A stretch of DNA of 64,000 nucleotides, from the NCBI GenBank assembly GCA_963678705.1, contig CAVMBN010000126.1, positions 1 to 64,000 of the forward strand, read 5' to 3'. Positions 1-62,824 of the stretch are shown piece by piece; position 1 is the stretch's first letter, and every line of letters starts with the position of its first letter. The DNA comes from Panorpa germanica. Its lineage: Eukaryota > Arthropoda > Insecta > Mecoptera > Panorpidae. The notes under the pieces were generated by a model. The model saw nothing but the letters and a program-made list of their open reading frames with translations. It was not told the DNA's origin and searched no databases. The position numbers and the translations under genes were made by a program.

Positions 1-968
1 GACAATGTCTTGCGATTTAGTTGGATCGCCAACAATAATTGCAGCAACATCATTAACGGTGGGTGCATTGAATCTCCGCACATGTTCACCTGTTGGGGTA
101 CAATCCGCTCTTATGACAAATTTGTGCGTATCCGATGGCATTCGTTTCAATGCTGTTTTGAACATATTAACCACAGCATTATTAGCGTGAAAAAATGCTT
201 GCAACTGTTCAATAATTCGTCTCTTTAACTGTTGTGTTCCCTGTATATTGCACCGCACATTCAGCTGATCCACCATCGACGAAATAAAATATATTTGCAG
301 AAATTGATGCGGTTCATCTGGTGTTGGCACCATTGAACCATGCAAATGATATATTTGTCCTTGTATCTGTAATTGCAAACAATCATTTGTTGAAGAATAC
401 GGTGTAACTTCTGATCGTGTGATGGTGTAGTGTGTGGTGTATATGTAGTTGTTATGTGTTGCAATTCATTGTGTTGGTGTGAGTGATTGGTTATGTGTGT
501 TGTATCTTTTACCTTGCAAGTCGGCATGAAGCCGCCTTCTCGAATGATATTAGCTCCAAAGGAAGTCATACGAAAGCAGTGGAAATGGCTGGAATCGGGA
601 TCACTTTCATCGAACAATGGTTTCAGTGGCTGTGGTGGTGTAAGTAATGGATCCAGTTTGACTTTTCCACTTGAGCAGCACAATCCAGCCGTTTCTCTTT
701 TGAACTTTAACGCATTGCAATATCGGCATATAGTCGTCGTTGGTCCAATATCTAAATTTTCATCATCACTGTAGTTCGCAGTGGGATCATATTGGAATGC
801 CAAGCGATTTTATGATGCCAATGATCTTCGTGTGCTCACGCGTTGTCTCAATCGGGCATTTTCTCTTATTATATTTTGCCTTTCTTCGCTTAAGTTCTGT
901 GAATACACTTGTTGCTGGCTTGCATGTCTTGTGCGGCGGCCGATGTTCGCACGTCGTTCTCTAGGCAT
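1..968 (-). pseudogene. Helitron protein, N-terminal part, intron-containing, broken (copy 1)
   Basis: The minus strand resembles the N-terminal region that precedes the Helitron_like_N and rolling-circle Rep domains in animal Helitrons. The probable start is the ATG at 968-966, giving an MPRERR start and an RRTR motif. The next block carries ICRYCNALKFKRET and GKVKL, then CFRMTSFGANI. A GT-AG intron (512-367, 146 bp, donor GTAAAAG, acceptor TTACAG) joins GFMPTCK to IQGQIYH. Exon 2 continues with HQFLQIYF, MPSDTHKFVIRAD and HVRRFNAPT. A TAA at 812-810 interrupts exon 1, about 53 codons in. The Rep and helicase parts are absent, because the fragment is cut at the junction with the LINE. Family call is from memory of Helitron proteins. 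Confidence 0.8.
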
Positions 969-1299
969 TTTGGACTATGGACAGAGTGGTGAATGTAACC
1001 TGAAATGCACGATCCACATAATTTACACAGTTCAACTTACCACCTTAAAGACAAATGCCTGCTGTTGAAATTGAATAAAAATTTGCACAATACACGTGAT
1101 TGATTTGATGGTTTCCAATTGAAATGTTAGGAAACGAATAACTAATTTTTTTAACTTTTTTTTCACAATTTCACAGTGAACACAATACCGGTTTGTCACA
1201 TGAAATTAACTGAGCAGAGAACAATAAGTAGCTGTCAAACAATGTATCACGCACCGGCGCCATTACTTAAAATATTGGTTTGTATCTATGCTATGTATC

Positions 1300-1690
1300 A
1301 GAGATGGCGCTGTATGTGAAAAAAGATTTTCCCGCTTTTCTGGTAAATTTTTTCCTGAATTCCTGAATTTTCTTTGCTATAAACCTCACGGAGCCCAAGA
1401 CCTTTCCAACGAATGCAAAACCGTGGAAATCGGTTCTTGCGTTCTGGAGTTATAACGTTAGGAAGGAAAACCCGACTTATTTTTATATAGTAGATTTTCA
1501 ATTTTCTAAATTTATGCATTTTTCTAAAATTACGGATTTCTAGGAAATTTAGGAAAAAGCTGAGGACGCCAAAAGTCTTAGAATGTTTTTCTCTGTGAAA
1601 TTGCAAATTTTAAACGAGATGCATAAAGCCGTTTTTGAATCACTACACAGAATTCAATACCAAACGTATAAACAAATAAATAAAAAAAGA
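1300..1690. repeat. Dispersed non-coding repeat (copies at 6210, 11120, 16030 in the other units)
   Basis: This stretch includes an A-rich end (AAATAAATAAAAAAAG) and text of the kind often seen in short insect repeats near a phrase about GGAAATCGG and GGAGTTATAA. Its right half (about 1510-1660) is clearly related to 48230-48400: both contain AAAAGTCTTAGAAT, GAAATTTAG and AAGCCGTTTT(T/C)GA in the same order. It is therefore an interspersed element, not a unique part of the unit. An open frame on its minus strand is not conserved as protein. Confidence 0.6.
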
Positions 1691-1757
1691 AAGAAGAGTT
1701 AAAAGTTTCCTAAAGACCCTTTCCCAACAAATTATTCAACCAACACAATAAACGTAC

Positions 1758-1871
1758 CTGACTCTTAACAGCGGGGTCTCTTACTCCGTATTGGTAGCGA
1801 TTACCAACATATTGTGTGTAAAATTCAGTAGCAATTGTTATAAACACTCCATTTGTTAAATAAACAAGTTT
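1758..1871 (-). other. Exon-like stretch ending in a splice donor (also 6668, 11578, 16488)
   Basis: On the minus strand 38 codons stay open and end in a good donor, CAG|GTACGT. The peptide ends NRYQYGVRDPAVKSQ, which is weakly reminiscent of the YGV.DP...KSQ core of RR-type cuticle proteins, but the usual residues between DP and KSQ are mostly missing. A TGA lies immediately upstream. Copies 1 and 3 read VGN and RDP, copies 2 and 4 read VDN and RDT. The family idea is tentative; it may be chance. Confidence 0.2.
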
Positions 1872-2438
1872 TCACGGAAGCCCTATAGCAGTAACCCCAA
1901 ATGTAACACACCCGTTTTAAATGATGTTGACTCTTACAGGTGACATTGCAATAAGCTCAATGACGCACCAAGCGCTTCCTACGCAATAACAGGAAATTAT
2001 AATCACATGAGAGCGTCCACACTATCTCATGATCGATCAAAATAACAGCACAGGACCGCAGTTGGATTGTGAATGGCCAAGATTGGTGGAAATTTTGAAA
2101 GCGTAAAAGATTTTTTTTTAAATTTAATTCATAATTTACAATCTGTACCAAAAAATATTGATCTAGTATTGACACTTGAGTTTGTCATCACCGATGACGT
2201 ACTCTTTAGCGTAACCAATTATAATAATTCACACAGACATGTGATTTTTTCAAATACATGTACTTCAAATGCAAATTCAAAGCACAAAACACACGAGGTC
2301 GTATACGCTAATATTTTGTGTGTTGAATTGTTTTTAATTTGGAATATGGAATCTTGTCATGTCGAAAGGCTCAGTTTCATACACCGTGTCCGATAATGAA
2401 TATAATCTGTTATAATAGGTTTAACTGCAAGATTATCG

Positions 2439-2564
2439 CGCAAGGAGAAACGTAAATGCTGGATTCGTCCTGATCTACAAAGGAGAAAAGATTATAATGC
2501 AAAAAATAAAACTTATTTAATAAAGGACTATCTTGTCGATGGGGAACTACGGACCGATGGCTAA
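2439..2564 (+). pseudogene. Possible PIF/Harbinger-like fragment (also 7349, 12259, 17169)
   Basis: One frame reads RKEKRKCWIRPDLQRR and continues as YLIKDYLVDGEL to a TAA at 2562. The pattern KR(K/F).W.RP.L.RR followed by an acidic L..EL segment is what the N-terminal region of PIF/Harbinger-related insect proteins looks like. Nothing recognisable follows, so this is at most a 40-codon relic. In copy 4 the tryptophan codon has become CGG (arginine). It could be a chance resemblance. Confidence 0.3.
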
Positions 2565-3850
2565 TTTAACATTATTGTAAGATTGTCCAGTTCATATAGG
2601 AATGCAGGTGTAAACTAACCTTAAACTTATGCTTTAAAAAAATACTGTGTTTGCATTTTTTTTTTCTTTTTAATGACTTCCTCTTTATTTTCACAAATTA
2701 TTGCTCTAGAAATGTTGCTCAAAGCGTTATATTTTTACTTTTTGTGTTCATACTTCATGTCCATGGTATTTCAAAGACATTGATATTGTCTATATTTTTT
2801 TTATAAACGTATAGAAATGTCATTTGCATTTGAAGTAATTCATATTTTACACGGATAATTGCGTTGTTCAAAATGAAGGTAACACAAGTCAAGTTAATAT
2901 GTGTGTTAGAGTGTGTTAGACTTTGCTTTCTCTCTCTCCTTACCACTGTTACCACTCATTACCAACTTAAACTGAAATCCATTTTTACAATTTAAAAATT
3001 CAGAGAATACTTACTCTTGTTCCTATATCTTTGAGCTCCTCATTGTTTCCCTCTTTTTCCCTTTTTCTCTTTTCTTGTCTTATCTATATTTTTAAGTTAT
3101 GTTGCTTATTAACAGATTATTTCTTTTATTAATAAAATTATTTTTTTCTTAATATATGTAATAACTTTAAATAACAATAGTTTTCAAGCTAGTGTCAAAT
3201 AAACTTCTAACTATTTATCTAAATATCGTAATGTAAAAATTTCTTCTTATTATTACTTAGGTGATTCCAGCCAATTGCACTAACTATAACTACTGTGATG
3301 TCACTATCATAATCATTCTTTTTTATTTATGCAAATCTGTATACCAATGTGAACAATTATCTGATTGTAAAAATTGAATTCTTTTAATAAATAAAACAGC
3401 TAAAGAGTTTTTAAATATCACTGCTCCAGAATTGTCTGCATCTTAAGTCATACCACTCCTTTCCATTGCCTTCACTACCATAAAATGTATAAATTTTTAC
3501 TTGGTATATTTTGCAGCATAGTTCAATCTGCTCCTCCATTTATTACATTTTTAGATTTAGATTTCCCGCGTTCCACGCACACCAATCTGATCGAACGTCG
3601 AAACAGAACATTATGTCCAGACGACAACAGACGCACTTTAGTTTTGACAGCTCATTGCACACGTCGATTTAGAATTATAGACAAGTTAATTTGCACCGTA
3701 TTCAGTTAATATTTTACTAAAATAATCCGCAGCATATGAGTATATCTGAAATAAATGTGCACAAAAATATATAGAGTTTTTTTACTCTGGTTTCCCTTCA
3801 GAGCGAATAAATCTTTCGCCTTTTACTAACGATTTCCGTGGAGGGGAGCA
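2565..3850. other. AT-rich filler of the tandem unit; no gene seen
   Basis: Contains T runs, a pyrimidine-rich patch at about 3010-3080 and short non-conserved frames. The patch near 3012 (CTCTTGTTCCTATAT) recurs at about 46203, beside an antisense LINE 3' fragment, so part of this filler is probably more LINE-derived sequence. The stretch 3560-3700 is more GC-rich than its surroundings, but I recognise nothing in it. Confidence 0.5.
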
Positions 3851-4865
3851 CTCAAAAAGGAAAGGGAATATAACGATAAGATAAAAGATAAAAAGAATGA
3901 GTTCAAAACATAGATGGAAAAAGAAATAAAAGAGATAACAACGGAAAGGCAGGCATGGGATTACATAAATAGGGAGAAAAGTCAAAGGAAAAAGCCGAGT
4001 AAGAAAATAAAAATGGAGGAGTGGACGAAACATTTTATGGGAGTACTAGGAGGAAAGAAAAGAAACGAGAGTACAAAGAAGTTGAATAAAGAGAAGGAGA
4101 AAGTAAACGAAATAGAACTAAATGAACTAAAAACACAAACTCAAGGAAAAGAAAGCACCAGGTAGAGATGGACTGAAGAACGAAGCGTGGAAAGTTGGGC
4201 GAGAAATGATAGAGAAAGGATTACTGACAGCGTTGAATAAGATATGGAAAGGAGGAGACCTGCCAGACAGCTGGAGAGAAGGGATAATAACTCCGCTATA
4301 CAAAAAGGGAAATAGACATGAAGTAAAGAACTATAGGGGAATTACCCTATTAAATACAGGGTATAGAATCTATGCAGAAATAGTGAGAGAAAGGTTGGAA
4401 GAAGAGATAAGAGTAAAAGAAATAATACCCAAAACGCAAGCAGGGTACAGAAAGGGGAGAGGAACGTTAGACAACATATACGCACTGAAATATGTAGTAG
4501 AAAGAAAACTAAAGGAAAAAGGATGAAAGATTTTTGCGATGTTCATTGACCTGAAAGCAGCATTCGACATGATAAACAGGGAGAAGTTGTAGGAATATGT
4601 GAGACGGAAAATAATAGATGAGAACATAGTGGAAAGAATTGAAGAAATCTACAAAGAGACAAAGATGCGAATAAGAGTTGGGGGTGAAGAGTCTGAAGAA
4701 TTCTGGGCAGACAAGGGGTGAGGCAAGGTTGTCCTCCGAGCCCCATTTTATTTGCGATGGATGATCGACAGATTGATAACCAGTATGATGATGTATGGAA
4801 CAGAGATATGGGGGTAGAAGGAGCAAGAGAAGTTGGAAAGAATAGAGGAAAGATATATTAAATGG
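3851..4865 (+). pseudogene. LINE ORF2 fragment: pre-RT and RT, decayed (copy 1)
   Basis: Purine-rich sense strand. From about 3851 the frame reads ERQAWDYINREK and EEWTKHFMGVLGG, then after a frameshift near 4150 reads APGRDGL, LPDSWREGIITPLYKKG, NYRGITLLN, QAGYRKGRGTLDNIYAL and FIDLKAAFD. These are reverse-transcriptase motifs of a non-LTR element of the I/Jockey/R1 group. Breaks: TAG at 3911, TGA at 4524, TAG at 4588, and a frameshift at about 4710, just before what should be GVRQGCP. After CCCCATTTTATTT (about 4742-4754) the FADD/YADD region is deleted and the text resumes in the C-terminal part (compare 61870-61965), ending at the Helitron junction. The 5' end is truncated. Confidence 0.85.
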
Positions 4866-5878
4866 ATGTGTCTCGTTTACACGATGCATGATATTGCTTC
4901 TTCGCTGAACGACAATGTCTTGCGATTTAGTTGGATCGCCAACAATAATTGCAGCAACATCATTAACGGTGGGTGCATTGAATCTCCGCACATGTTCACC
5001 TGTTGGGGTACAATCCGCTCTTATGACAAATTTGTGCGTATCCGATGGCATTCGTTTCAATGCTGTTTTGAACATATTAACCACAGCATTATTAGCGTGA
5101 AAAAATGCTTGCAACTGTTCAATAATTCGTCTCTTTAACTGTTGTGTTCCCTGTCTATTGCACCGCACATTCAGCTGATCCACCATCGACGAAATAAAAT
5201 ATATTTGCAGAAATTGATGCGGTTCATCTGGTGTTGGCACCATTGAACCATGCAAATGATATATTTGTCCTTGTATCTGTAATTGCAAACAATCATTTGT
5301 TGAAGAATACGGTGTAACTTCTGATCGTGTGATGGTGTAGTGTGTGGTGTATATGTAGTTGTTATGTGTTGCAATTCATTGTGTTGGTGTGAGTGATTGG
5401 TTATGTGTGTTGTATCTTTTACCTTGCAAGTCGGCATGAAGCCGCCTTCTCGAATGATATTAGCTCCAAAGGAAGTCATACGAAAGCAGTGGAAATGGCT
5501 GGAATCGGGATCACTTTCATCGAACAATGGTTTCAGTGGCTGTGGTGGTGTAAGTAATGGATCCAGTTTGACTTTTCCACTTGAGCAGCACAATCCAGCC
5601 GTTTCTCTTTTGAACTTTAACGCATTGCAATATCGGCATATAGTCGTCGTTGGTCCAATATCTAAATTTTCATCATCACTGTAGTTCGCAGTGGGATCAT
5701 ATTGGAATGCCAAGCGATTTTATGATGCCAATGATCTTCGTGTGCTCACGCGTTGTCTCAATCGGGCATTTTCTCTTATTATATTTTGCCTTTCTTCGCT
5801 TAAGTTCTGTGAATACACTTGTTGCTGGCTTGCATGTCTTGTGCGGCGGCCGATGTTCGCACGTCGTTCTCTAGGCAT
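4866..5878 (-). pseudogene. Helitron N-terminal fragment, copy 2
   Basis: Same gene piece as 1-968, here seen entire up to the junction. Exon 1 is 5878-5423, intron 5422-5277, exon 2 5276-4866. The fragment stops at the codons for HRVNETH, where the minus strand runs straight into antisense LINE. In-frame TAA at 5722-5720. Unlike copies 1, 3 and 4, position 5153 is C, changing an isoleucine to arginine in exon 2. Confidence 0.8.
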
Positions 5879-8800
5879 TTTGGACTATGGACAGAGTGGT
5901 GAATGTAACCTGAAATGCACGATCCACATAATTTACACAGTTCAACTTACCACCTTAAAGACAAATGCCTGCTGTTGAAATTGAATAAAAATTTGCACAA
6001 TACACGTGATTGATTTGATGGTTTCCAATTGAAATGTTAGGAAACGAATAACTAATTTTTTTAACTTTTTTTTCACAATTTCACAGTGAACACAATACCG
6101 GTTTGTCACATGAAATTAACTGAGCAGAGAACAATAAGTAGCTGTCAAACAATGTATCACGCACCGGCGCCATTACTTAAAATATTGGTTTGTATCTATG
6201 CTATGTATCAGAGATGGCGCTGTATGTGAAAAAAGATTTTCCCGCTTTTCTGGTAAATTTTTTCCTGAATTCCTGAATTTTCTTTGCTATAAACCTCACG
6301 GAGCCCAAGACCTTTCCAACGAATGCAAAACCGTGGAAATCGGTTCTTGCGTTCTGGAGTTATAACGTTAGGAAGGAAAACCCGACTTATTTTTATATAG
6401 TAGATTTTCAATTTTCTAAATTTATGCATTTTTCTAAAATTACGGATTTCTAGGAAATTTAGGAAAAAGCTGAGGACGCCAAAAGTCTTAGAATGTTTTT
6501 CTCTGTGAAATTGCAAATTTTAAACGAGATGCATAAAGCCGTTTTTGAATCACTACACAGAATTCAATACCAAACGTATAAACAAATAAATAAAAAAAGA
6601 AAGAAGAGTTAAAAGTTTCCTAAAGACCCTTTCCCAACAAATTATTCAACCAACACAATAAACGTACCTGACTCTTAACAGCGGTGTCTCTTACTCCGTA
6701 TTGGTAGCGATTATCAACATATTGTGTGTAAAATTCAGTAGCAATTGTTATAAACACTCCATTTGTTAAATAAACAAGTTTTCACGGAAGCCCTATAGCA
6801 GTAACCCCAAATGTAACACACCCGTTTTAAATGATGTTGACTCTTACAGGTGACATTGCAATAAGCTCAATGACGCACCAAGCGCTTCCTACGCAATAAC
6901 AGGAAATTATAATCACATGAGAGCGTCCACACTATCTCATGATCGATCAAAATAACAGCACAGGACCGCAGTTGGATTGTGAATGGCCAAGATTGGTGGA
7001 AATTTTGAAAGCGTAAAAGATTTTTTTTTAAATTTAATTCATAATTTACAATCTGTACCAAAAAATATTGATCTAGTATTGACACTTGAGTTTGTCATCA
7101 CCGATGACGTACTCTTTAGCGTAACCAATTATAATAATTCACACAGACATGTGATTTTTTCAAATACATGTACTTCAAATGCAAATTCAAAGCACAAAAC
7201 ACACGAGGTCGTATACGCTAATATTTTGTGTGTTGAATTGTTTTTAATTTGGAATATGGAATCTTGTCATGTCGAAAGGCTCAGTTTCATACACCGTGTC
7301 CGATAATGAATATAATCTGTTATAATAGGTTTAACTGCAAGATTATCGCGCAAGGAGAAACGTAAATGCTGGATTCGTCCTGATCTACAAAGGAGAAAAG
7401 ATTATAATGCAAAAAATAAAACTTATTTAATAAAGGACTATCTTGTCGATGGGGAACTACGGACCGATGGCTAATTTAACATTATTGTAAGATTGTCCAG
7501 TTCATATAGGAATGCAGGTGTAAACTAACCTTAAACTTATGCTTTAAAAAAATACTGTGTTTGCATTTTTTTTTTCTTTTTAATGACTTCCTCTTTATTT
7601 TCACAAATTATTGCTCTAGAAATGTTGCTCAAAGCGTTATATTTTTACTTTTTGTGTTCATACTTCATGTCCATGGTATTTCAAAGACATTGATATTGTC
7701 TATATTTTTTTTATAAACGTATAGAAATGTCATTTGCATTTGAAGTAATTCATATTTTACACGGATAATTGCGTTGTTCAAAATGAAGGTAACACAAGTC
7801 AAGTTAATATGTGTGTTAGAGTGTGTTAGACTTTGCTTTCTCTCTCTCCTTACCACTGTTACCACTCATTACCAACTTAAACTGAAATCCATTTTTACAA
7901 TTTAAAAATTCAGAGAATACTTACTCTTGTTCCTATATCTTTGAGCTCCTCATTGTTTCCCTCTTTTTCCCTTTTTCTCTTTTCTTGTCTTATCTATATT
8001 TTTAAGTTATGTTGCTTATTAACAGATTATTTCTTTTATTAATAAAATTATTTTTTTCTTAATATATGTAATAACTTTAAATAACAATAGTTTTCAAGCT
8101 AGTGTCAAATAAACTTCTAACTATTTATCTAAATATCGTAATGTAAAAATTTCTTCTTATTATTACTTAGGTGATTCCAGCCAATTGCACTAACTATAAC
8201 TACTGTGATGTCACTATCATAATCATTCTTTTTTATTTATGCAAATCTGTATACCAATGTGAACAATTATCTGATTGTAAAAATTGAATTCTTTTAATAA
8301 ATAAAACAGCTAAAGAGTTTTTAAATATCACTGCTCCAGAATTGTCTGCATCTTAAGTCATACCACTCCTTTCCATTGCCTTCACTACCATAAAATGTAT
8401 AAATTTTTACTTGGTATATTTTGCAGCATAGTTCAATCTGCTCCTCCATTTATTACATTTTTAGATTTAGATTTCCCGCGTTCCACGCACACCAATCTGA
8501 TCGAACGTCGAAACAGAACATTATGTCCAGACGACAACAGACGCACTTTAGTTTTGACAGCTCATTGCACACGTCGATTTAGAATTATAGACAAGTTAAT
8601 TTGCACCGTATTCAGTTAATATTTTACTAAAATAATCCGCAGCATATGAGTATATCTGAAATAAATGTGCACAAAAATATATAGAGTTTTTTTACTCTGG
8701 TTTCCCTTCAGAGCGAATAAATCTTTCGCCTTTTACTAACGATTTCCGTGGAGGGGAGCACTCAAAAAGGAAAGGGAATATAACGATAAGATAAAAGATA

Positions 8801-9820
8801 AAAAGAATGAGTTCAAAACATAGATGGAAAAAGAAATAAAAGAGATAACAACGGAAAGGCAGGCATGGGATTACATAAATAGGGAGAAAAGTCAAAGGAA
8901 AAAGCCGAGTAAGAAAATAAAAATGGAGGAGTGGACGAAACATTTTATGGGAGTACTAGGAGGAAAGAAAAGAAACGAGAGTACAAAGAAGTTGAATAAA
9001 GAGAAGGAGAAAGTAAACGAAATAGAACTAAATGAACTAAAAACACAAACTCAAGGAAAAGAAAGCACCAGGTAGAGATGGACTGAAGAACGAAGCGTGG
9101 AAAGTTGGGCGAGAAATGATAGAGAAAGGATTACTGACAGCGTTGAATAAGATATGGAAAGGAGGAGACCTGCCAGACAGCTGGAGAGAAGGGATAATAA
9201 CTCCGCTATACAAAAAGGGAAATAGACATGAAGTAAAGAACTATAGGGGAATTACCCTATTAAATACAGGGTATAGAATCTATGCAGAAATAGTGAGAGA
9301 AAGGTTGGAAGAAGAGATAAGAGTAAAAGAAATAATACCCAAAACGCAAGCAGGGTACAGAAAGGGGAGAGGAACGTTAGACAACATATACGCACTGAAA
9401 TATGTAGTAGAAAGAAAACTAAAGGAAAAAGGATGAAAGATTTTTGCGATGTTCATTGACCTGAAAGCAGCATTCGACATGATAAACAGGGAGAAGTTGT
9501 AGGAATATGTGAGACGGAAAATAATAGATGAGAACATAGTGGAAAGAATTGAAGAAATCTACAAAGAGACAAAGATGCGAATAAGAGTTGGGGGTGAAGA
9601 GTCTGAAGAATTCTGGGCAGACAAGGGGTGAGGCAAGGTTGTCCTCCGAGCCCCATTTTATTTGCGATGGATGATCGACAGATTGATAACCAGTATGATG
9701 ATGTATGGAACAGAGATATGGGGGTAGAAGGAGCAAGAGAAGTTGGAAAGAATAGAGGAAAGATATATTAAATGGATGTGTCTCGTTTACACGATGCATG
9801 ATATTGCTTCTTCGCTGAAC
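4911..9820. repeat. 4,910-bp tandem unit, copy 2
   Basis: Complete unit between two unit starts. Sub-parts: dispersed repeat 6210-6600, exon-like 6668-6781, transposase-like 7349-7474, LINE block 8761-9775. Carries the GGTG/TTAT variant pair at 6685 and 6714, which is shared with copy 4 but not with copies 1 and 3. Confidence 0.95.
8761..9775 (+). pseudogene. LINE ORF2 fragment, copy 2
   Basis: Same block as 3851-4865 with the same frame breaks: TAG 8821, frameshift near 9060, TGA 9434, TAG 9498, frameshift near 9620. I saw no difference from copy 1. Confidence 0.85.
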
Positions 9821-10788
9821 GACAATGTCTTGCGATTTAGTTGGATCGCCAACAATAATTGCAGCAACATCATTAACGGTGGGTGCATTGAATCTCCGCA
9901 CATGTTCACCTGTTGGGGTACAATCCGCTCTTATGACAAATTTGTGCGTATCCGATGGCATTCGTTTCAATGCTGTTTTGAACATATTAACCACAGCATT
10001 ATTAGCGTGAAAAAATGCTTGCAACTGTTCAATAATTCGTCTCTTTAACTGTTGTGTTCCCTGTATATTGCACCGCACATTCAGCTGATCCACCATCGAC
10101 GAAATAAAATATATTTGCAGAAATTGATGCGGTTCATCTGGTGTTGGCACCATTGAACCATGCAAATGATATATTTGTCCTTGTATCTGTAATTGCAAAC
10201 AATCATTTGTTGAAGAATACGGTGTAACTTCTGATCGTGTGATGGTGTAGTGTGTGGTGTATATGTAGTTGTTATGTGTTGCAATTCATTGTGTTGGTGT
10301 GAGTGATTGGTTATGTGTGTTGTATCTTTTACCTTGCAAGTCGGCATGAAGCCGCCTTCTCGAATGATATTAGCTCCAAAGGAAGTCATACGAAAGCAGT
10401 GGAAATGGCTGGAATCGGGATCACTTTCATCGAACAATGGTTTCAGTGGCTGTGGTGGTGTAAGTAATGGATCCAGTTTGACTTTTCCACTTGAGCAGCA
10501 CAATCCAGCCGTTTCTCTTTTGAACTTTAACGCATTGCAATATCGGCATATAGTCGTCGTTGGTCCAATATCTAAATTTTCATCATCACTGTAGTTCGCA
10601 GTGGGATCATATTGGAATGCCAAGCGATTTTATGATGCCAATGATCTTCGTGTGCTCACGCGTTGTCTCAATCGGGCATTTTCTCTTATTATATTTTGCC
10701 TTTCTTCGCTTAAGTTCTGTGAATACACTTGTTGCTGGCTTGCATGTCTTGTGCGGCGGCCGATGTTCGCACGTCGTTCTCTAGGCAT
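9776..10788 (-). pseudogene. Helitron N-terminal fragment, copy 3
   Basis: Exon 1 10788-10333, intron 10332-10187, exon 2 10186-9776. In-frame TAA at 10632-10630. Splice sites and coding text match copies 1 and 2. Confidence 0.8.
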
Positions 10789-13700
10789 TTTGGACTATGG
10801 ACAGAGTGGTGAATGTAACCTGAAATGCACGATCCACATAATTTACACAGTTCAACTTACCACCTTAAAGACAAATGCCTGCTGTTGAAATTGAATAAAA
10901 ATTTGCACAATACACGTGATTGATTTGATGGTTTCCAATTGAAATGTTAGGAAACGAATAACTAATTTTTTTAACTTTTTTTTCACAATTTCACAGTGAA
11001 CACAATACCGGTTTGTCACATGAAATTAACTGAGCAGAGAACAATAAGTAGCTGTCAAACAATGTATCACGCACCGGCGCCATTACTTAAAATATTGGTT
11101 TGTATCTATGCTATATATCAGAGATGGCGCTGTATGTGAAAAAAGATTTTCCCGCTTTTCTGGTAAATTTTTTCCTGAATTCCTGAATTTTCTTTGCTAT
11201 AAACCTCACGGAGCCCAAGACCTTTCCAACGAATGCAAAACCGTGGAAATCGGTTCTTGCGTTCTGGAGTTATAACGTTAGGAAGGAAAACCCGACTTAT
11301 TTTTATATAGTAGATTTTCAATTTTCTAAATTTATGCATTTTTCTAAAATTACGGATTTCTAGGAAATTTAGGAAAAAGCTGAGGACGCCAAAAGTCTTA
11401 GAATGTTTTTCTCTGTGAAATTGCAAATTTTAAACGAGATGCATAAAGCCGTTTTTGAATCACTACACAGAATTCAATACCAAACGTATAAACAAATAAA
11501 TAAAAAAAGAAAGAAGAGTTAAAAGTTTCCTAAAGACCCTTTCCCAACAAATTATTCAACCAACACAATAAACGTACCTGACTCTTAACAGCGGGGTCTC
11601 TTACTCCGTATTGGTAGCGATTACCAACATATTGTGTGTAAAATTCAGTAGCAATTGTTATAAACACTCCATTTGTTAAATAAACAAGTTTTCACGGAAG
11701 CCCTATAGCAGTAACCCCAAATGTAACACACCCGTTTTAAATGATGTTGACTCTTACAGGTGACATTGCAATAAGCTCAATGACGCACCAAGCGCTTCCT
11801 ACGCAATAACAGGAAATTATAATCACATGAGAGCGTCCACACTATCTCATGATCGATCAAAATAACAGCACAGGACCGCAGTTGGATTGTGAATGGCCAA
11901 GATTGGTGGAAATTTTGAAAGCGTAAAAGATTTTTTTTTAAATTTAATTCATAATTTACAATCTGTACCAAAAAATATTGATCTAGTATTGACACTTGAG
12001 TTTGTCATCACCGATGACGTACTCTTTAGCGTAACCAATTATAATAATTCACACAGACATGTGATTTTTTCAAATACATGTACTTCAAATGCAAATTCAA
12101 AGCACAAAACACACGAGGTCGTATACGCTAATATTTTGTGTGTTGAATTGTTTTTAATTTGGAATATGGAATCTTGTCATGTCGAAAGGCTCAGTTTCAT
12201 ACACCGTGTCCGATAATGAATATAATCTGTTATAATAGGTTTAACTGCAAGATTATCGCGCAAGGAGAAACGTAAATGCTGGATTCGTCCTGATCTACAA
12301 AGGAGAAAAGATTATAATGCAAAAAATAAAACTTATTTAATAAAGGACTATCTTGTCGATGGGGAACTACGGACCGATGGCTAATTTAACATTATTGTAA
12401 GATTGTCCAGTTCATATAGGAATGCAGGTGTAAACTAACCTTAAACTTATGCTTTAAAAAAATACTGTGTTTGCATTTTTTTTTTCTTTTTAATGACTTC
12501 CTCTTTATTTTCACAAATTATTGCTCTAGAAATGTTGCTCAAAGCGTTATATTTTTACTTTTTGTGTTCATACTTCATGTCCATGGTATTTCAAAGACAT
12601 TGATATTGTCTATATTTTTTTTATAAACGTATAGAAATGTCATTTGCATTTGAAGTAATTCATATTTTACACGGATAATTGCGTTGTTCAAAATGAAGGT
12701 AACACAAGTCAAGTTAATATGTGTGTTAGAGTGTGTTAGACTTTGCTTTCTCTCTCTCCTTACCACTGTTACCACTCATTACCAACTTAAACTGAAATCC
12801 ATTTTTACAATTTAAAAATTCAGAGAATACTTACTCTTGTTCCTATATCTTTGAGCTCCTCATTGTTTCCCTCTTTTTCCCTTTTTCTCTTTTCTTGTCT
12901 TATCTATATTTTTAGGTTATGTTGCTTATTAACAGATTATTTCTTTTATTAATAAAATTATTTTTTTCTTAATATATGTAATAACTTTAAATAACAATAG
13001 TTTTCAAGCTAGTGTCAAATAAACTTCTAACTATTTATCTAAATATCGTAATGTAAAAATTTCTTCTTATTATTACTTAGGTGATTCCAGCCAATTGCAC
13101 TAACTATAACTACTGTGATGTCACTATCATAATCATTCTTTTTTATTTATGCAAATCTGTATACCAATGTGAACAATTATCTGATTGTAAAAATTGAATC
13201 CTTTTAATAAATAAAACAGCTAAAGAGTTTTTAAATATCACTGCTCCAGAATTGTCTGCATCTTAAGTCATACCACTCCTTTCCATTGCCTTCACTACCA
13301 TAAAATGTATAAATTTTTACTTGGTGTATTTTGCAGCATAGTTCAATCTGCTCCTCCATTTATTACATTTTTAGATTTAGATTTCCCGCGTTCCACGCAC
13401 ACCAATCTGATCGAACGTCAAAACAGAACATTATGTCCAGACGACAACAGACGCACTTTAGTTTTGACAGCTCATTGCACACGTCGATTTAGAATTATAG
13501 ACAAGTTAATTTGCACCGTATTCAGTTAATATTTTACTAAAATAATCCGCAGCATACGAGTATATCTGAAATTAATGTGCACAAAAATATATAGAGTTTT
13601 TTTACTCTGGTTTCCCTTCAGAGCGAATAAATCTTTCGCCTTTTACTAACGATTTCCGTGGAGGGGAGCACTCAAAAAGGAAAGGGAATATAACGATAAG

Positions 13701-14730
13701 ATAAAAGATAAAAAGAATGAGTTCAAAACATAGATGGAAAAAGAAATAAAAGAGATAACAACGGAAAGGCAGGCATGGGATTACATAAATAGGGAGAAAA
13801 GTCAAAGGAAAAAGCCGAGTAAGAAAATAAAAATGGAGGAGTGGACGAAACATTTTATGGGAGTACTAGGAGGAAAGAAAAGAAACGAGAGTACAAAGAA
13901 GTTGAATAAAGAGAAGAAGAAAGTAAACGAAATAGAACTAAATGAACTAAAAACACAAACTCAAGGAAAAGAAAGCACCAGGTAGAGATGGACTGAAGAA
14001 CGAAGCGTGGAAAGTTGGGCGAGAAATGATAGAGAAAGGATTACTGACAGCGTTGAATAAGATATGGAAAGGAGGAGACCTGCCAGACAGCTGGAGAGAA
14101 GGGATAATAACTCCGCTATACAAAAAGGGAAATAGACATGAAGTAAAGAACTATAGGGGAATTACCCTATTAAATACAGGGTATAGAATCTATGCAGAAA
14201 TAGTGAGAGAAAGGTTGGAAGAAGAGATAAGAGTAAAAGAAATAATACCCAAAACGCAAGCAGGGTACAGAAAGGGGAGAGGAACGTTAGACAACATATA
14301 CGCACTGAAATATGTAGTAGAAAGAAAACTAAAGGAAAAAGGATGAAAGATTTTTGCGATGTTCATTGACCTGAAAGCAGCATTCGACATGATAAACAGG
14401 GAGAAGTTGTAGGAATATGTGAGACGGAAAATAATAGATGAGAACATAGTGGAAAGAATTGAAGAAATCTACAAAGAGACAAAGATGCGAATAAGAGTTG
14501 GGGGTGAAGAGTCTGAAGAATTCTGGGCAGACAAGGGGTGAGGCAAGGTTGTCCTCCAAGCCCCATTTTATTTGCGATGGATGATCGACAGATTGATAAC
14601 CAGTATGATGATGTATGGAACAGAGATATGGGGGTAGAAGGAGCAAGAGAAGTTGGAAAGAATAGAGGAAAGATATATTAAATGGATGTGTCTCGTTTAC
14701 ACGATGCATGATATTGCTTCTTCGCTGAAC
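9821..14730. repeat. 4,910-bp tandem unit, copy 3
   Basis: Complete unit. Sub-parts: dispersed repeat 11120-11510, exon-like 11578-11691, transposase-like 12259-12384. Differences from copy 1 seem concentrated in the right third (for example near 12915, 13200, 13326, 13420, 13556, 13916 and 14557). Several of these (13200, 13556 and the nearby AAATTAATG) are shared with copy 4, while at 11595 and 11624 the unit matches copy 1. Confidence 0.95.
13671..14685 (+). pseudogene. LINE ORF2 fragment, copy 3
   Basis: Same block and same breaks as copy 1. A G-to-A change near 13916 turns KEKEKV into KEKKKV, and CCGAGCC has become CCAAGCC near 14557. No extra frame break. Confidence 0.85.
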
Positions 14731-15698
14731 GACAATGTCTTGCGATTTAGTTGGATCGCCAACAATAATTGCAGCAACATCATTAACGGTGGGTGCATTG
14801 AATCTCCGCACATGTTCACCTGTTGGGGTACAATCCGCTCTTATGACAAATTTGTGCGTATCCGATGGCATTCGTTTCAATGCTGTTTTGAACATATTAA
14901 CCACAGCATTATTAGCGTGAAAAAATGCTTGCAACTGTTCAATAATTCGTCTCTTTAACTGTTGTGTTCCCTGTATATTGCACCGCACATTCAGCTGATC
15001 CACCATCGACGAAATAAAATATATTTGCAGAAATTGATGCGGTTCATCTGGTGTTGGCACCATTGAACCATGCAAATGATATATTTGTCCTTGTATCTGT
15101 AATTGCAAACAATCATTTGTTGAAGAATACGGTGTAACTTCTGATCGTGTGATGGTGTAGTGTGTGGTGTATATGTAGTTGTTATGTGTTGCAATTCATT
15201 GTGTTGGTGTGAGTGATTGGTTATGTGTGTTGTATCTTTTACCTTGCAAGTCGGCATGAAGCCGCCTTCTCGAATGATATTAGCTCCAAAGGAAGTCATA
15301 CGAAAGCAGTGGAAATGGCTGGAATCGGGATCACTTTCATCGAACAATGGTTTCAGTGGCTGTGGTGGTGTAAGTAATGGATCCAGTTTGACTTTTCCAC
15401 TTGCGCAGCACAATCCAGCCGTTTCTCTTTTGAACTTTAACGCATTGCAATATCGGCATATAGTCGTCGTTGGTCCAATATCTAAATTTTCATCATCACT
15501 GTAGTTCGCAGTGGGATCATATTGGAATGCCATGCGATTTTATGATGCCAATGATCTTCGTGTGCTCACGCGTTGTCTCAATCGGGCATTTTCTCTTATT
15601 ATATTTTGCCTTTCTTCGCTTAAGATCTGTGAATACACTTGTTGCTGGCTTGCATGTCTTGTGCGGCGGCCGATGTTCGCACGTCGTTCTCTAGGCAT
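14686..15698 (-). pseudogene. Helitron N-terminal fragment, copy 4
   Basis: Exon 1 15698-15243, intron 15242-15097, exon 2 15096-14686. Slightly more diverged than the others: an alanine replaces serine after CC in the GLCC motif, and AAGCG has become ATGCG near 15532. The TAA at 15542-15540 is retained. Confidence 0.8.
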
Positions 15699-18600
15699 TT
15701 TGGACTATGGACAGAGTGGTGAATGTAACCTGAAATGCACGATCCACATAATTTACACAGTTCAACTTACCACCTTAAAGACAAATGCCTGCTGTTGAAA
15801 TTGAATAAAAATTTGCACAATACACGTGATTGATTTGATGGTTTCCAATTGAAATGTTAGGAAACGAATAACTTATTTTTTTAACTTTTTTTTCACAATT
15901 TCACAGTGAACACAATACCGGTTTGTCACATGAAATTAACTGAGCAGAGAACAATAAGTAGCTGTCAAACAATGTATCACGCACCGGCGCCATTACTTAA
16001 AATATTGGTTTGTATCTATGCTATGTATCAGAGATGGCGCTGTATGTGAAAAAAGATTTTCCCGCTTTTCTGGTAAATTTTTTCCTGAATTCCTGAATTT
16101 TCTTTGCTATAAACCTCACGGAGCCCAAGACCTTTCCAACGAATGCAAAACCGTGGAAATCGGTTCGTGCGTTCTGGAGTTATAACGTCAGGAAGGAAAA
16201 CCCGACTTATTTTTATATAGTAGATTTTCAATTTTCTAAATTTATGCATTTTTCTAAAATTACGGATTTCTAGGAAATTTAGGAAAAAGCTGAGGACGCC
16301 AAAAGTCTTAGAATGTTTTTCTCTGTGAAATTGCAAATTTTAAACGAGATGCATAAAGCCGTTTTTGAATCACTACACAGAATTCAATACCAAACGTATA
16401 AACAAATAAATAAAAAAAGAAAGAAGAGTTAAAAGTTTCCTAAAGACCCTTTCCCAACAAATTATTCAACCAACACAATAAACGTACCTGACTCTTAACA
16501 GCGGTGTCTCTTACTCCGTATTGGTAGCGATTATCAACATATTGTGTGTAAAATTCAGTAGCAATTGTTATAAACACTCCATTTGTTAAATAAACAAGCT
16601 TTCACGGAAGCCCTATAGCAGTAACCCCAAATGTAACACACCCGTTTTAAATGATGTTGACTCTTACAGGTGACATTGCAATAAGCTCAATGACGCACCA
16701 AGCGCTTCCTACGCAATAACAGGAAATTATAATCACATGAGAGCGTCCACACTATCTCATGATCGATCAAAATAACAGCACAGGACCGCAGTTGGATTGT
16801 GAATGGCCAAGATTGGTGGAAATTTTGAAAGCGTAAAAGATTTTTTTTTAAATTTAATTCATAATTTACAATCTGTACCAAAAAATATTGATCTAGTATT
16901 GACACTTGAGTTTGTCATCACCGATGACGTACTCTTTAGCGTAACCAATTATAATAATTCACACAGACATGTGATTTTTTCAAATACATGTACTTCAAAT
17001 GCAAATTCAAAGCACAAAACACACGAGGTCATAAACGCTAATATTTTGTGTGTTGAATTGTTTTTAATTTGGAATATGGAATCTTGTCATGTCGAAAGGC
17101 TCAGTTTCATACACCGTGTCCGATAATGAATATAATCTGTTATAATAGGTTCAACTGCAAGATTATCGCGCAAGGAGAAACGTAAATGCCGGATTCGTCC
17201 TGATCTACAAAGGAGAAAAGATTATGGTGCAAAAAATAAAACTTATTTAATAAAGGACTATCTTGTCGATGGGGAACTACGGACCGATGGCTAATTTAAC
17301 ATTATTGTAAGATTGTCCAGTTCATATAGGAATGCAGGTGTAAACTAACCTTAAACTTATGCTTTAAAAAAATACTGTGTTTGCATTTTTTTTTCTTTTT
17401 AATGACTTCCTCTTTATTTTCACAAAATATTGCTCTAGAAATGTTGCTCAAAGCGTTATATTTTTACTTTTTGTGTTCATACTTCATGTCCATGGTATTT
17501 CAAAGACATTGATATTGTCTTTATTTTTTTAATAAACGTATAGAAATGTCATTTGCATTTGAAGTAATTCATATTTTACACGGATAATTGCGTTGTTCAA
17601 AATGAAGGTAACACAAGTCAAGTTAATATGTGTGTTAGAGTGTGTTAGACTTTGCTTTCTCTCTCTCCTTACCACTGTTACCACTCATTACCAACTTAAA
17701 CTGAAATCCATTTTTACAATTTAAAAATTCAGAGAATACTTACTCTTGTTCCTATATCTTTGAGCTCCTCATTGTTTCCCTCTTTTTCCCTTTTTCTCTT
17801 TTCTTGTCTTATCTATATTTTTAAGTTATGTTGCTTATTAACAGATTATTTCTTTTATTAATAAAATTATTTTTTTCTTAATATATGTAATAACTTTAAA
17901 TAACAATAGTTTTCAAGCTAGTGTCAAATAAACTTCTAACTATTTATCTAAATATCGTAATGTAAAAATTTCTTCTTATTATTACTTAGGTGATTCCAGC
18001 CAATTGCACTAACTATAACTACTGTGATGTCACTATCATAATCATTCTTTTTTATTTATGCAAATCTGTATACCAATGTGAACAATTATCTGATTGTAAA
18101 AATTGAATCCTTTTAATAAATAAAACAGCTAAGGAGTTTTTAAATATCACTGCTCCAGAATTGTCTGCATCTTAAGTCATACCACTCCTTTCCATTGCCT
18201 TCACTACCATAAAATGTATAAATTTTTACTTGGTATATTTTGCAGCATAGTTCAATCTGCTCCTCCATTTATTACATTTTTAGATTTAGATTTCCCGCGT
18301 TCCACGCACACCAATCTGATCGAACGTCGAAACAGAACATTATGTCCAGACGACAACAGACGCACTTTAGTTTTGACAGCTCATTGCACACGTCGATTTA
18401 GAATTATAGACAAGTTAATTTGCACCGTATTCAGTTAATATTTTACTAAAATAATCCGCAGCATACGAGTATATCTGAAATTAATGTGCACAAAAATATA
18501 TAAAGTTTTTTTACTCTGGTTTCCCTTCAGAGCGAATAAATCTTTCGCCTTTTTCTAACGATTTCCGTGGAGGGGAGCACTCAAAAAGGAAAGGGAATAT

Positions 18601-19482
18601 AACGATAAGATAAAAGATAAAAAGAATGAGTTCAAAACATAGATGAAAAAAGAAATAAAAGAGATAACAACGGAAAGGCAGGCATGGGATTACATAAATA
18701 GGGAGAAAAGTCAAAGGAAAAAGCCGAGTAAGGAAATAAAAATGGAGGAGTGGACGAAACATTTTATGGGAGTACTAGGAGGAAAGAAAAGAAACGAGAG
18801 TACAAAGAAGTTGAATAAAGAGAAGGAGAAAGTAAACGAAATAGAACTAAATGAACTAAAAACACAAACTCAAGGAAAAGAAAGCACCAGGTAGAGATGG
18901 ACTGAAGAACGAAGCGGGGAAAGTTGGGCGAGGAAGGATAGAGAAAGGATTACTGACAGCGTTGAATAAGATATGGAAAGGAGGAGACCTGCCAGACAGC
19001 TGGAGAGAAGGGATAATAACTCCGCTATACAAAAAGGGAAATAGACATGAAGTCAAGAACTGTAGGGGAATTACCCTATTAAATACAGGGTATAGAATCT
19101 ATGCAGAAATAGTGAGAGAAAGGTTGGAAGAAGAGATAAGAGTAAAAGAAATAATACCCAAAACGCAAGCAGGGTACAGAAAGGGGAGAGGAACGTTAGA
19201 CAACATATACGCTCTGAAATATGTAGTAGAAAGAAAACTAAAGGAAAAAGGATGAAAGATTTTTGCGATGTTCATTGATCTGAAAGCAGCATTCGACATG
19301 ATAAACAGGGAGAAGTTGTAGGAATATGTGAGACGGAAAATAATAGATGAGAACATAGTGAAAAGAATTGAAGAAATCTACAAAGAGACAAAGATGCGAA
19401 TAAGAGTTGGGGGTGAAGAGTCTGAAGAATTCTGGGCAGACAAGGGGTGAGGCAAGGTTGTCCTCTGAGCCCCATTTTATTT
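14731..19482. repeat. Tandem unit, copy 4 (terminal, diverged, 1 bp shorter)
   Basis: The right-most copy. It carries more substitutions than copies 1-3, and one T is missing from the T run near 17390, so downstream offsets are one base less. Sub-parts: dispersed repeat 16030-16420, exon-like 16488-16601, transposase-like 17169-17294. It loses register with the other units right after CCCCATTTTATTT at 19470-19482 and continues as ordinary LINE sequence. Confidence 0.95.
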
Positions 19483-20520
19483 CCGAAAAAGAGAAAGGAG
19501 TATTTTGAGAGGAATGGAATGGCGATCGAGGAGGCAGAGAGGAGAAGAGAAGGAGGCGCAAATGTGGAAGAGGAACTAAGGAGAAGGGATAAGGAGAAAA
19601 GCAAATACAGTACACGATATAAAAGGATTTGGGAAAGTAATATACCTCAGTATTTAATAGAAAAAATACATAAAAAACATTAGAAGGACAGCAAGGTTTA
19701 GATTGGGAAATGAGGAAAAGGAAAACAGATACTGGGAAAGTAGTGAGGAAAGAATGTGTAGAGTGTGCGGAACGGAAGACGAAATAGTGGAGCACATTAA
19801 GTTTGACTGTAAGGAAAAAGTAGTGTAAAGTAGTGAAAAAGTAGTAGTAGAGGGAGGCAGTGTAGGAAAGAGGTGGATGGCGGAAATAGAAAAAAGGAAA
19901 GAAAAAAACAGGACAATCAATAAGCTCAGCAATAAGGGTTGGATAAGGAACATGAAGAAAGAGGAATTACTAAAAGAGGCAGTGAAGGGAAGCAGGAGAA
20001 AGAAGGAAGTAGCGAGGAAACAGTTAAACTTCGGTCCAGACAAATAGAGGATTTGCGGAAAGGAGATAAGGACAAGAGGTGGATGACGGAGATAGAGACA
20101 ACAATAAAATAGTAAAGAAAGAGAGTCAAGAAGAAATAGTAAAGTAAGAGAGTCAAGAGGAAATAGTAAAGATAGAGTGTTTATGCCTGTAATAGACATA
20201 AGTGGAGAAGTGAAAACGAAGAGAGAAGGCAGGAAGGACAGTAAAAAGATAATAGAGGGTTTGTCGAGAGGAGACAAGGAAGGCAAGAGGTGATAGATGA
20301 AGATACAGGTAATAAGGAGGGAGAAGCAGGACACGGTGTGAATAAAGGAGAAGTAGGAAACATGAAGAGAGGTGATCAAGAAAAGAAGAAACAAAAAGAA
20401 ATATTCGAAGTAGTAATAGTCTTGAATAGTTTAAGTTTAGTTTTAAGTTTGAATTTATATGAAATGCATCAAGAAATATAATAATGTAGATTGTAAAGCC
20501 GAAAGGCACACAATTAATAT
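18580..20520 (+). pseudogene. LINE ORF2 with C-terminal region and 3' end (array-terminal copy)
   Basis: The RT block matches the array copies (LPDSWREG, QAGYRKGRG), then at 19483 jumps to a later point of ORF2, reading KRKEYFERNGMAIEEAERR as in 62150-62210. The C-terminal zinc-knuckle region follows around 19750-19810 (CRVCGTEDE..EHIKFDC) with a stop nearby, then a purine-rich tail with internal duplications and the 3' terminus. That terminus carries the hairpin GCC-GAAA-GGC at 20498-20507 and CACAATTAATAT. The YADD part is deleted, so it cannot encode a working RT. It shows how the LINE continues beyond the amplified unit. Confidence 0.8.
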
Positions 20521-21235
20521 AATAAATAATATAGAGTTTCTTTTTAACATTTTACCTAAATTGTAACTTTATGTAAGGCTTGATGAGCTTATTATTGCCA
20601 GCATCCTTAAAAAAAGTGAATCATTTTTTTATAATAAATGAGTATTACCTTGAAGATTTGTTACTCTGTCAATTTTTACAATTTATGAATAAAACTTTAA
20701 CAGCTAATTCTTAAGGTACAAAAACTGAACATCTCTGTTTAGGACTTATACTAGTCTGAAAAATTAATTTTTACTCTCATTTAAGGTCTTGATCTTTTCT
20801 AGTGTAATATACTCCGATTATCTTTTATAAGCAACTATTTTTTGTATTTTTTCTGTATTTGTTCTTCCTTTCTTATATTCCTTCTCTGTTCGTCATCATG
20901 AACTTTCCAAGCCAGTCAAACATACACGATCATCTAAAACCGCTCCAAGAAATCTTTTAATAATTTTTGTGTTCTTTCCAACATCAAATTTGCTATTTTT
21001 TGTACTTCTTTTATATAGACATCATGTTTCGTATACTTTTAAGTCAATATAAACTCATTGCTTGCAACATTATCCAAGAGAAAAAAAATATTTATAATAA
21101 TTTAACCTAACTTTGTTTATTCTTCTTCATTTTGTGATATTGATTTGTTTTCATTTTTCTAATACATATAGCTTCAAATATATTAGCAGATCGCTAATAA
21201 TTTCCTAAGAATAATAAGTCAGTTTTTGTTTTTAG
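20521..21235. other. AT-rich intergenic or intronic DNA; nothing recognised
   Basis: No open frame of note. It ends in a pyrimidine-rich tract and TTTTAG at 21231-21235, which would serve as the acceptor of the exon that follows. Confidence 0.5.
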
Positions 21236-22240
21236 TACGTGCTAATCTTTTCCATGAAAATGGAGGACTGCAAACGACAGAAAATAAAAATGGAAGTTGA
21301 AGAGAAATTAAATGTGCTAATTAAAACACAAATTATAAATGAAGAAGATCTCAAAATAGAAATAAAAGAGGGACGAGTTGTAAGAGAAACAGTGGAATGT
21401 GATGAAGTACAAACAGAGTTTAAAGAAGAACCAGACGAGAACTTAGAGGAAGTTACAAATTAAGGAGAAATAACTGATTTTTAAAGTTTTAGATTGATTA
21501 TTCATCTGTTTTGCATAATTGCGATAACACGTTACCAATCGCAACCAAATTGCAGGAACATTTACAAATATCACCTCGGAATAAGGTAAATATAAATTCG
21601 ATAGTTAAAAATGTCGTTAAACCGCTTAATTGTGAACAACCAGAAAATGAAACATTTGATAATAAATTGCAGCTTTATATCTGTGAAGTTTGTGACAAAT
21701 CGTTTAAAAATGCATAAAATATCAAAATACATTTCCATAAACATTCGACAAAGAAAATGCATTCTTGTACTGTCTGTAACAAAACGCTTAGCAGCTCATC
21801 AGCTTTAAAACGGCATAAGAACAGACATTTAGGTGTAAAACCATTCTCTTGCAATGAATGTAGTAAAACGTTTAGTTCAATCAGTTCATTTAAAACGACA
21901 TAAGAACACACATTTAGGGGTTAAACCATATTCTTGTGACGAATGTAACAAATCGCTAAGCAGCTCATTTGCTTTAAAAGTACCTAAGAACATACATTTA
22001 GGTGTTAAACTATTTACATGCACTGAATGTAGGAAAAAGTTTAGTCAGTTGGGAACGTTAAACCGACGTAAGAACTTATATTGACTTGTAACGAATGTAG
22101 TAAAACGTTTAGTCAATCAGGAGTTTTAAAACGACATAAAAATCTACATTTAGTTGTAAAATGATTTTCGTGAGTCGTTTGCAACAAACGCTTTGAAGGA
22201 GAGAGAGTTCCTTACAACAACATAAAAAACACTCATGCTA
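21236..22240 (+). pseudogene. C2H2 zinc-finger protein gene, degenerate
   Basis: After an acceptor-like TTTTAG, an ATG at 21254 opens an acidic/lysine-rich leader (KMEDCKRQKIKMEVEEK, then EFKEEPDENLEE) ending at TAA 21461. From about 21505 C2H2 fingers follow: ICEVCDKSF (TAA after it at 21716), SCTVCNKTLSSSSALKRHKNRH, SCNECSKTFSS, then a frameshift near 21890, SCDECNKSLSSSFAL, TCTECRKKFSQLGTL, a further frameshift near 22085, and TCNECSKTFSQSGVLKRHKN. Such proteins normally bind DNA in the nucleus. Fingers are joined by HLGVKPFSC-type linkers instead of the canonical TGEKPY. At least two frameshifts and three stops argue for a pseudogene; alternative splicing cannot remove all of them. Confidence 0.75.
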
Positions 22241-22479
22241 TTAAAAGTCGCTAAGCTTACCTAATATATTTTCAATTTACACATTTAACTGTTTTTCTAC
22301 ATAATGTTCATTTCTGAAACATGACAAATTCAATTATTACTAAACAGTCTCTGTTGCTTTCTCGCAACTTATATTAAACTTTTAAGCTTTGTGCCTAGTA
22401 TTTTGTGTTTTATTATTTTTGCTGGATTCTTATTTAATCTTTTAATAGTGACTAGTTTGAAGACAAATAAAACATAAAA

Positions 22480-22681
22480 GTAAAAAAAAAGCATTAAATG
22501 GTCTATCATCACATGTAGTAGGAGCAAATTGTGAAAAGGACGACTATGATGTCCTAATTGGTTTAGAAGAATTTACTGAGGGAAGTAGTATATTAGAAAA
22601 TAACTATAAAGGTGAGAAGACGAGGAATTCTCTGATTTAGATGATAACTTGATAGACGTTGATATTTATGAATACGATTAG
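22480..22681 (+). pseudogene. Unrecognised acidic coding remnant with a frameshift
   Basis: One frame reads GLSSHVVGANCEKDDYDVLIG and EEFTEGSSILENNY, then after a one-base shift near 22620 DEEFSDLDDNLIDVD followed by a stop at 22679. The run of acidic residues and lack of stops suggest former coding sequence. I do not recognise the family. The rest of 22241-23313 is AT-rich with nothing I can name. Confidence 0.25.
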
Positions 22682-23503
22682 TTTGAAGGTTAACCATTAT
22701 CTTACGTTACAGGGTTTGTTGCCTAAACATTGAAAATATCCACTGTTGTGTTATTATTTCTAAATTATTTCTAAGGATCGCGCAATGAGTTGTACAAAAG
22801 TTATTGAGTTTTATCTATGACATGTTTCCGAGTTTCTCTTATGTTTACATTTACCTGAAGTACAATCGGAGTGACCATTTCTGCTCATTAATTCCCAATT
22901 GTAATTTTCCTATAGTCAGACGTCCGAAAAGTCGTAACAATACTTTACCTCCTTGTCTTGCTAATTCTTTCTCTGTTATAAAATATAGGATGTACATGTT
23001 ATCCATCGTCGACTTCCTTTTTTAAGCCCGCCTAGTTCTCCGGGATTGGATTTTTCTTTTCCATCTTTTCTTTTAAACTTTTCTAGTGTTGCTGTATCGA
23101 ATAATTTCTCTTTTATATAATATGCTTTGTGATTATATAAACTTCAAACTTTATTCAAAAAAAAAATAAACAATAAAATATTTACCTTTTTTAACTCAAA
23201 AACCTTTTGTCATTTATGTTTCTAGTTTCAATTTTCGCTAAAAAGAAATTATAACATTTCAAGCATGTCTAATCTATTTAAAAAATAATTAAATTAAGCA
23301 TTTTGTATAATAATTTTTTTTTTTTTTTTTTTTTTTTTTTATTTCTCCTATTGTTTCAGCAATCTGCCTAAGTAGGCAATAAGCTTCTTACATGATAACT
23401 TACATAATTAATTAAGACATGTAAGAGAAACATTCCAGTGAATGCCCTCTTGTTTTTATATACAATAATCTATTATCATATATCATATATTGTGCACTAT
23501 TCC

Positions 23504-30708: not shown

Positions 30709-31224
30709 ATATATACTCGTAGTTATATTTTTCAACACTGCTTTCCAGCTGTCAAACTTTTGTAAAAGCACTGATTTTAGGGTAAATTACCACAAAATTA
30801 AGACAAACTTAAATATTTTTCGTTAAAAGAAGTATTCATTTAATTTTTTTAATTTTTTTTCCGTAATTAATTTCTCACTTTTAATCACTTTTTTCACCTA
30901 AAGTAGCAGGAGATGATCTCACACACAGTAGATAGAGACAGTGAGTATCTCGTTAATCCCAAGAGATAGGAAATTTTTTTTTTCTCATTTGTCTTACATT
31001 TTACGGTACTTTCCGAGCGTTCGCTTATTATGTACCTTGCTAACTATTGTTTTTTATATTTGTACCAATCCGGAACAATTTGTATATTATACCAAATTGA
31101 TACATCCATACTATGTTTCTCGTACAATGTATTTTTAATAAGCTTATGTCAGGCGTTTGGTCGCAAACGTCCCTAACCACGGTAAGGTGATTTGACTTTT
31201 CCTTATCTAGCGAAATATGTCCTA
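30709..31224. other. AT-rich DNA; nothing recognised
   Basis: Contains T runs and a GC-richer patch at about 31150-31190, with no feature I can support. Confidence 0.45.
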
Positions 31225-62812: not shown

Positions 62813-62824
62813 ATAAAAAAAAAA

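Follow-up and report, generated by a model that had tools for sequence, protein, structure and literature searches.

A 4.9-kb tandem array joining a LINE, zinc-finger duplicon DNA and a Helitron in Panorpa germanica

Results

The window analysed here comprises bases 1-64,000 of contig C142 (CAVMBN010000126.1; 557,976 bp) of the Panorpa germanica assembly GCA_963678705.1 (464 Mb, 249 contigs). Its left end is occupied by a head-to-tail array of a 4,910-bp unit, in which the 5' part of a Helitron transposon, upstream DNA of a zinc-finger duplicon and part of a long interspersed nuclear element (LINE) follow each other. When bases 1-19500 were compared with themselves by shift, 13,127 of 14,590 positions matched at a shift of 4910, against 4,224-5,847 at each of the 20 other shifts between 4900 and 4920. 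The assembly contains at least four copies, the first without 45 bp and the last short; relative to 1-4910, three mismatches were found in 4911-9820, nine in 9821-14730, and 36 together with one 1-bp gap in 14731-19486. The four near-identical copies and the period proposed in an initial annotation of this DNA were borne out by these counts and alignments, and the array itself was confirmed, with its right end at 19486 and not at 19482. The features of the locus are as follows.

1-19486, no strand: tandem array, head to tail, with 3.97 periods of 4,910 bp; truncated on the left where the contig begins
1-4865: copy A, unit positions 46-4910; first 45 bp missing at the contig start
4866-9775: copy B, full unit
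9776-14685: copy C, full unit
14686-19486: copy D, rightmost and most diverged; 293 bp of LINE gone at the right end relative to the inferred precursor
4863-4868: LINE/Helitron tandem junction, shared bases GAT; recurs near 9775 and 14685
4866-6404, minus strand: 5' part of a Helitron, from its natural 5' terminus (TC) at 6404 to the truncation at 4866
9776-11314, 14686-16224 and, in copy A, 1-1494: further Helitron 5' parts
6405-8678: upstream DNA of the zinc-finger duplicon, minus a short dispersed repeat near 6429-6590
8679-8689: 5' copy of the LINE target-site duplication (ATATAGAGTTT), with further exact occurrences at 3769 and 13589
8690-9775, plus strand: LINE fragment carrying a reverse transcriptase, with a deletion inside it at about 9667/9668; its right end at 9775 was, on our reading, made by the duplication
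19487-20528, plus strand: rest of the same LINE up to its 3' end, beyond the array
20529-20539: LINE target-site duplication, 3' copy (ATATAGAGTTT)
20951-22512, plus strand: what is left of the duplicon's C2H2 zinc-finger gene, with stops and frame changes

The unit had been described as a LINE-Helitron chimera. Both elements are present, but nearly half of it (about 2.3 of 4.9 kb) is neither LINE nor Helitron and consists of zinc-finger duplicon DNA. In size it belongs to the kilobase class, as macrosatellite units do, and no intact gene was found in it. The contig start lies close to a junction position for a unit of 4,910 bp, which is either chance or a clue to an assembly break.

The junctions lie at 4865/4866, 9775/9776 and 14685/14686, in agreement with all three positions annotated before (about 4865, 9775 and 14685). 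At the breakpoint, marked here by a slash, the LINE reads AAATGG/ATACTAGG, the Helitron ACAAACG/ATGTGTC and the array AAATGG/ATGTGTC, with the bases GAT in common; at least three shared bases occurred in 5.4% of 200,000 random breakpoint pairs drawn from these two stretches. With a junction 32-mer and up to three mismatches, three sites were obtained in the 464 Mb, all of them within the array, while a reversed-pattern control gave 0 sites in the same genome search. At the right end of copy D (19486) an additional 293 bp, corresponding to 109 bp of the unit and 184 bp of the LINE, were lost between breakpoints that share about three bases, CGA.

The Helitron part was characterized through its genomic relatives. 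With a 401-base junction probe the best 40 of 1,551 candidates were scored, so that Helitron copy counts are lower bounds; 37 of the 40 matches lay outside the array, every one starting at the junction base, and the other three were the array junctions. Eight Helitron copies in seven fetched loci continue past 4866 with mutually similar Helitron sequence, and a ninth, in L017, stood outside that comparison. The family starts with TCTACTATATAAA in seven of seven genomic copies, the base before the TC being A in five and T in two, and ends with a hairpin and CTAG in six of the seven copies searched (in L010 with one mismatch in the hairpin); this end was not found in L016. The copy in L010 gave Pfam matches to Helitron_like_N (2.1e-17) and PIF1 (2.9e-64). 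The 3' hairpin, the CTRR end and the Rep and PIF1 domains are absent from the fragment in the unit because it is truncated, and when five unit frames were scanned against Pfam, RVT_1 was the sole match and the Helitron frames gave none. The minus-strand Helitron gene of the initial annotation is therefore upheld in its identity, by genomic copies with ends and domains, and not by domain matches of the unit frames themselves. As seen on the 5' side by comparison of the array with L019 and L022, the TC terminus sits between A and T without target duplication, and a 37-mer spanning Helitron and target had four genomic sites at up to three mismatches, one per array copy.

The LINE frame of the unit matched RVT_1 (2.4e-07; 31.1 bits at a cut-off of 29.6), supporting the annotated plus-strand reverse transcriptase block, whereas the four other unit frames tested against Pfam gave no match. 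Forty LINE loci were scored, namely the four array copies, L022 (a single-copy paralog at C5:11,551,801-11,561,700, hereafter the 11.55-Mb locus) and 35 others. In the array and in L022 the LINE has an internal deletion of about 0.4 kb; no alignment crosses this point in the 35 other loci, and in 29 additional rows the second LINE block is placed some 0.4 kb further on. The deletion is common to the array and L022, and therefore a single LINE insertion was inherited by both. A LINE copy at window 61861-62264 carries the same 184 bp between the two pieces that are split in the array. Exact ATATAGAGTTT is absent from copy D. Among the scored loci the first ~75 bases of the insertion (8690-8763) match only the array and L022, and in the other 35 matching starts at about 8764 or later.

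For the duplicon DNA at 6405-8678, 39 rows were obtained outside C142, 16 of them on C5, including the best 14 (69-96% identity), one of which spans the full length at 92%. The remaining 23 are short pieces of 67-82% on other contigs, many of which represent the single dispersed repeat near 6429-6590; this repeat occurs on many contigs at about 80% and also at window 48237-48397 at 77%. A three-frame pattern search of the gene remnant at 20951-22512 gave three finger motifs in broken frames, one containing a stop. In the related locus L018 zf-C2H2 matches were found in both frames scanned, and L020 has finger motifs by pattern. The array multiplies the upstream block of the duplicon without its finger-coding part. 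Within that block, 7552-8635 is conserved in L018, L020, L022 and the aligned part of L019. An exon in this core was considered and rejected, as indels not in threes are scattered across the paralogs and the stretch appears non-coding by eye; judged from the alignments, it is probably regulatory or untranslated sequence. Repeats of 84 bp coding for C2H2 fingers, mostly in broken frames, extend over ~6.6 kb in L018 (about 3268-9901) and over ~4.5 kb in L020 (about 5340-9901), both on contig C5 and in both cases up to the fetched end.

To order the events, loci with and without each insertion were compared. L022 aligns with unit positions 2256-4910 at 95.5%, continues with 184 bp of LINE and then with window 19487 onward at 97%. 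It thereby crosses the LINE breakpoint, with 109 bp of LINE, the further 184 bp, and the sequence found at 19487. L019 and L024 are without the LINE and have the target once, where array and flank have ATATAGAGTTT twice; L019 and L022 are without the Helitron, and their A/T target is uncut. Alignments to these paralogs and to the Helitron copies confirm the annotated view that neither element ends naturally at the junction. Past the last copy the LINE extends as far as its 3' terminus and target-site duplication and therefore was not truncated beforehand; L022 and this continuation beside the array give no support to the proposal that both elements had been truncated first, and truncation and tandem duplication are best read as one event. 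By comparison of these loci, the apparent order is LINE insertion, segmental duplication, Helitron insertion, LINE-Helitron tandem duplication and addition of further copies.

That the window is a haplotig of the 11.55-Mb locus was considered and rejected: similarity to L022 stops at 22512, with only 369 bp of L022 beyond. Of the best 40 of 5,611 candidates for window 30,728-33,200, those that lie outside C142 are all short pieces. On this partial test the array locus is more likely a paralog of L022 than an allele.

Divergence between copies is layered. The first three differ among themselves by 3, 9 and 12 of 4,756 bases (0.06-0.25%), the last differs from these by 35-39 of 4,755 (0.74-0.82%), and array copies differ from L022 by 87-95 substitutions of 2,520 (3.45-3.77%). 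Rooted with L022, 32 columns are variable: 17 are private to the last copy, six common to the first three, five private to the third and three common to the first two, and one separates all four from L022. Growth by steps of unequal exchange, in which the edge copy lags behind, would yield this pattern. The Helitron part of two array copies diverges by 1.69-2.86% from seven genomic copies (a set that leaves out the second L015 copy and the L017 copy), which only bounds the age of the insertion and gives no date.

Further repeats lie in the neighbourhood. At window 23316-27126, on the minus strand, a high-copy element whose frames resemble, by eye, those of an endonuclease and a reverse transcriptase matches 23 other places over at least 3.4 kb at 96-98%. 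Segments related to window 30728-33199 at 83-92% occur in C142 near 188, 251-253, 263-264 and 295 kb. A second tandem repeat runs from window 60470-64000 into L009 (C142:60470-68994), with a period of 3,672 bp and 99.94% identity over 4,853 bp; it includes a 155-bp minisatellite and a 3' fragment belonging to the LINE family of the array. A separate 1,335-bp piece of it (99.5%) lies at window 54843-56177, about 4.3 kb to its left.

Discussion

We propose that the array arose by recent in-place tandem duplication within a zinc-finger duplicon, with ends in a LINE and a Helitron, and by later unequal exchange between the copies, a reading to which we assign a probability of roughly 0.85. Empty sites in paralogs show that a LINE had entered the DNA upstream of a copy of a C2H2 gene, and that a Helitron followed later, at a point some 2.3 kb farther upstream. 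Through a break or a switch in replication, a point in the LINE would then have become joined to a point in the Helitron at three shared bases, so that the intervening 4,910 bp were duplicated; the junction is read directly, the repair pathway we infer. Unequal exchange between copies would then have added and homogenised copies in the interior while the one at the right edge stayed diverged, as the divergence pattern suggests. Of the origins that had been put forward, duplication followed by unequal exchange remains the best reading, with which the copies, the right flank in L022 order and the nested divergences agree. Head-to-tail copies, shared bases and the right flank fit a tandem duplication by microhomology; its left flank is absent from the assembly. 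The array is most likely neutral, and no function is needed to explain it.

Several observations weigh against this proposal. The array begins at base 1 of C142, 45 bp to the right of a junction position, and the left edge, where the remainder of the Helitron should continue, is not in the assembly. Besides L022 itself, the DNA on its upstream side matched two loci on C5 (90 and 93%); the other matches among the 40 scored candidates were shorter or weaker. The right edge was changed by the 293-bp deletion, and its phase is deduced through the L022 paralog. The 37-mer genome search found no fifth Helitron insertion at the same target. The GAT microhomology is only suggestive of a repair pathway, three bases being weak evidence.

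Three other origins were weighed. A 4,910-bp extrachromosomal circle, closed at GAT, could have been amplified by rolling circle and have re-entered the locus by homologous recombination; closure at the same two points would give the identical junction, and several near-identical copies are indeed present. The right edge, however, lies in the native locus and in L022 order, so that re-entry at home would be required, and by age the copies fall into two layers or more and not into a single burst. We consider this route improbable; nothing that was observed asks for it. Still less credence is due to an artefact in which the assembler chained reads from one or two true units. The position of the array at a contig end, starting 45 bp past a junction position, and the second near-perfect tandem repeat in the same contig would agree with it. 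From a looped single unit, however, identical copies would be expected. In the assembly the first three are separated from one another by 3, 9 and 12 bases, they differ from the last at 35-39, and the last has a private 293-bp deletion in addition. Given these differences of 3-39 bases and the deletion, assembly error appears unlikely from the assembled copies.

Amplification by the Helitron itself, with repeated initiation at the 5' end producing a run of 3'-truncated Helitrons as in plant centromeric Helitrons, was rejected on the empty sites in paralogs and a terminus that adjoins the pre-insertion site, and we regard it as highly improbable. Every unit does retain a Helitron 5' end without a 3' end, and rolling-circle Helitron arrays in which many 5' ends accompany a single 3' end are on record (Xiong et al., 2016, via PMC12628747). 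In such arrays units are joined at the 5' terminus; here they are not, and LINE and host DNA lie on the 5' side, the wrong side for read-through past the 3' end.

Macrosatellites such as human D4Z4 consist of head-to-tail units of kilobase size. The present unit is comparable, but only about four copies of it are known. The available part of PMC12628747 already describes satellite monomers that are composites, with stretches from several transposons. Like these satellites, as far as that part describes them, the array is a tandem unit with fragments from more than one transposon class; it differs from them in its long unit (4.9 kb), in its about four known copies, in the duplicon DNA that makes up nearly half of the unit, and in having a traceable precursor locus. 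The repair of breaks is likewise described as a source of tandem duplications of transposon segments (PMC9659126, available part), and the array shares with such duplications the head-to-tail order, breakpoints in transposons and expansion between copies. That part of the source stresses recombination between similar transposons, whereas the breakpoints here lie in unrelated elements with only three shared bases. The array thus resembles composite satellites in its make-up and break-repair tandem duplications in its origin. In the titles and abstract openings searched, no publication on this array was found.

Taken together, the array looks like a real and fairly ordinary recent duplication that is well resolved. 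A more far-reaching view, which we hold to be doubtful, is that C142 ends inside a long macrosatellite seeded by the LINE-Helitron duplication, in which the DNA upstream of a zinc-finger duplicon gene would be multiplied, that the 3,672-bp array was similarly seeded, and that zinc-finger duplicons are a hotspot; if true, these duplicons would be places where transposon-rich duplicons become macrosatellites. The array offers nothing new in principle. It serves as a clear worked case of the way in which composite tandem repeats can begin, since paralogs with and without each insertion allow the steps from a single copy to an array to be ordered.

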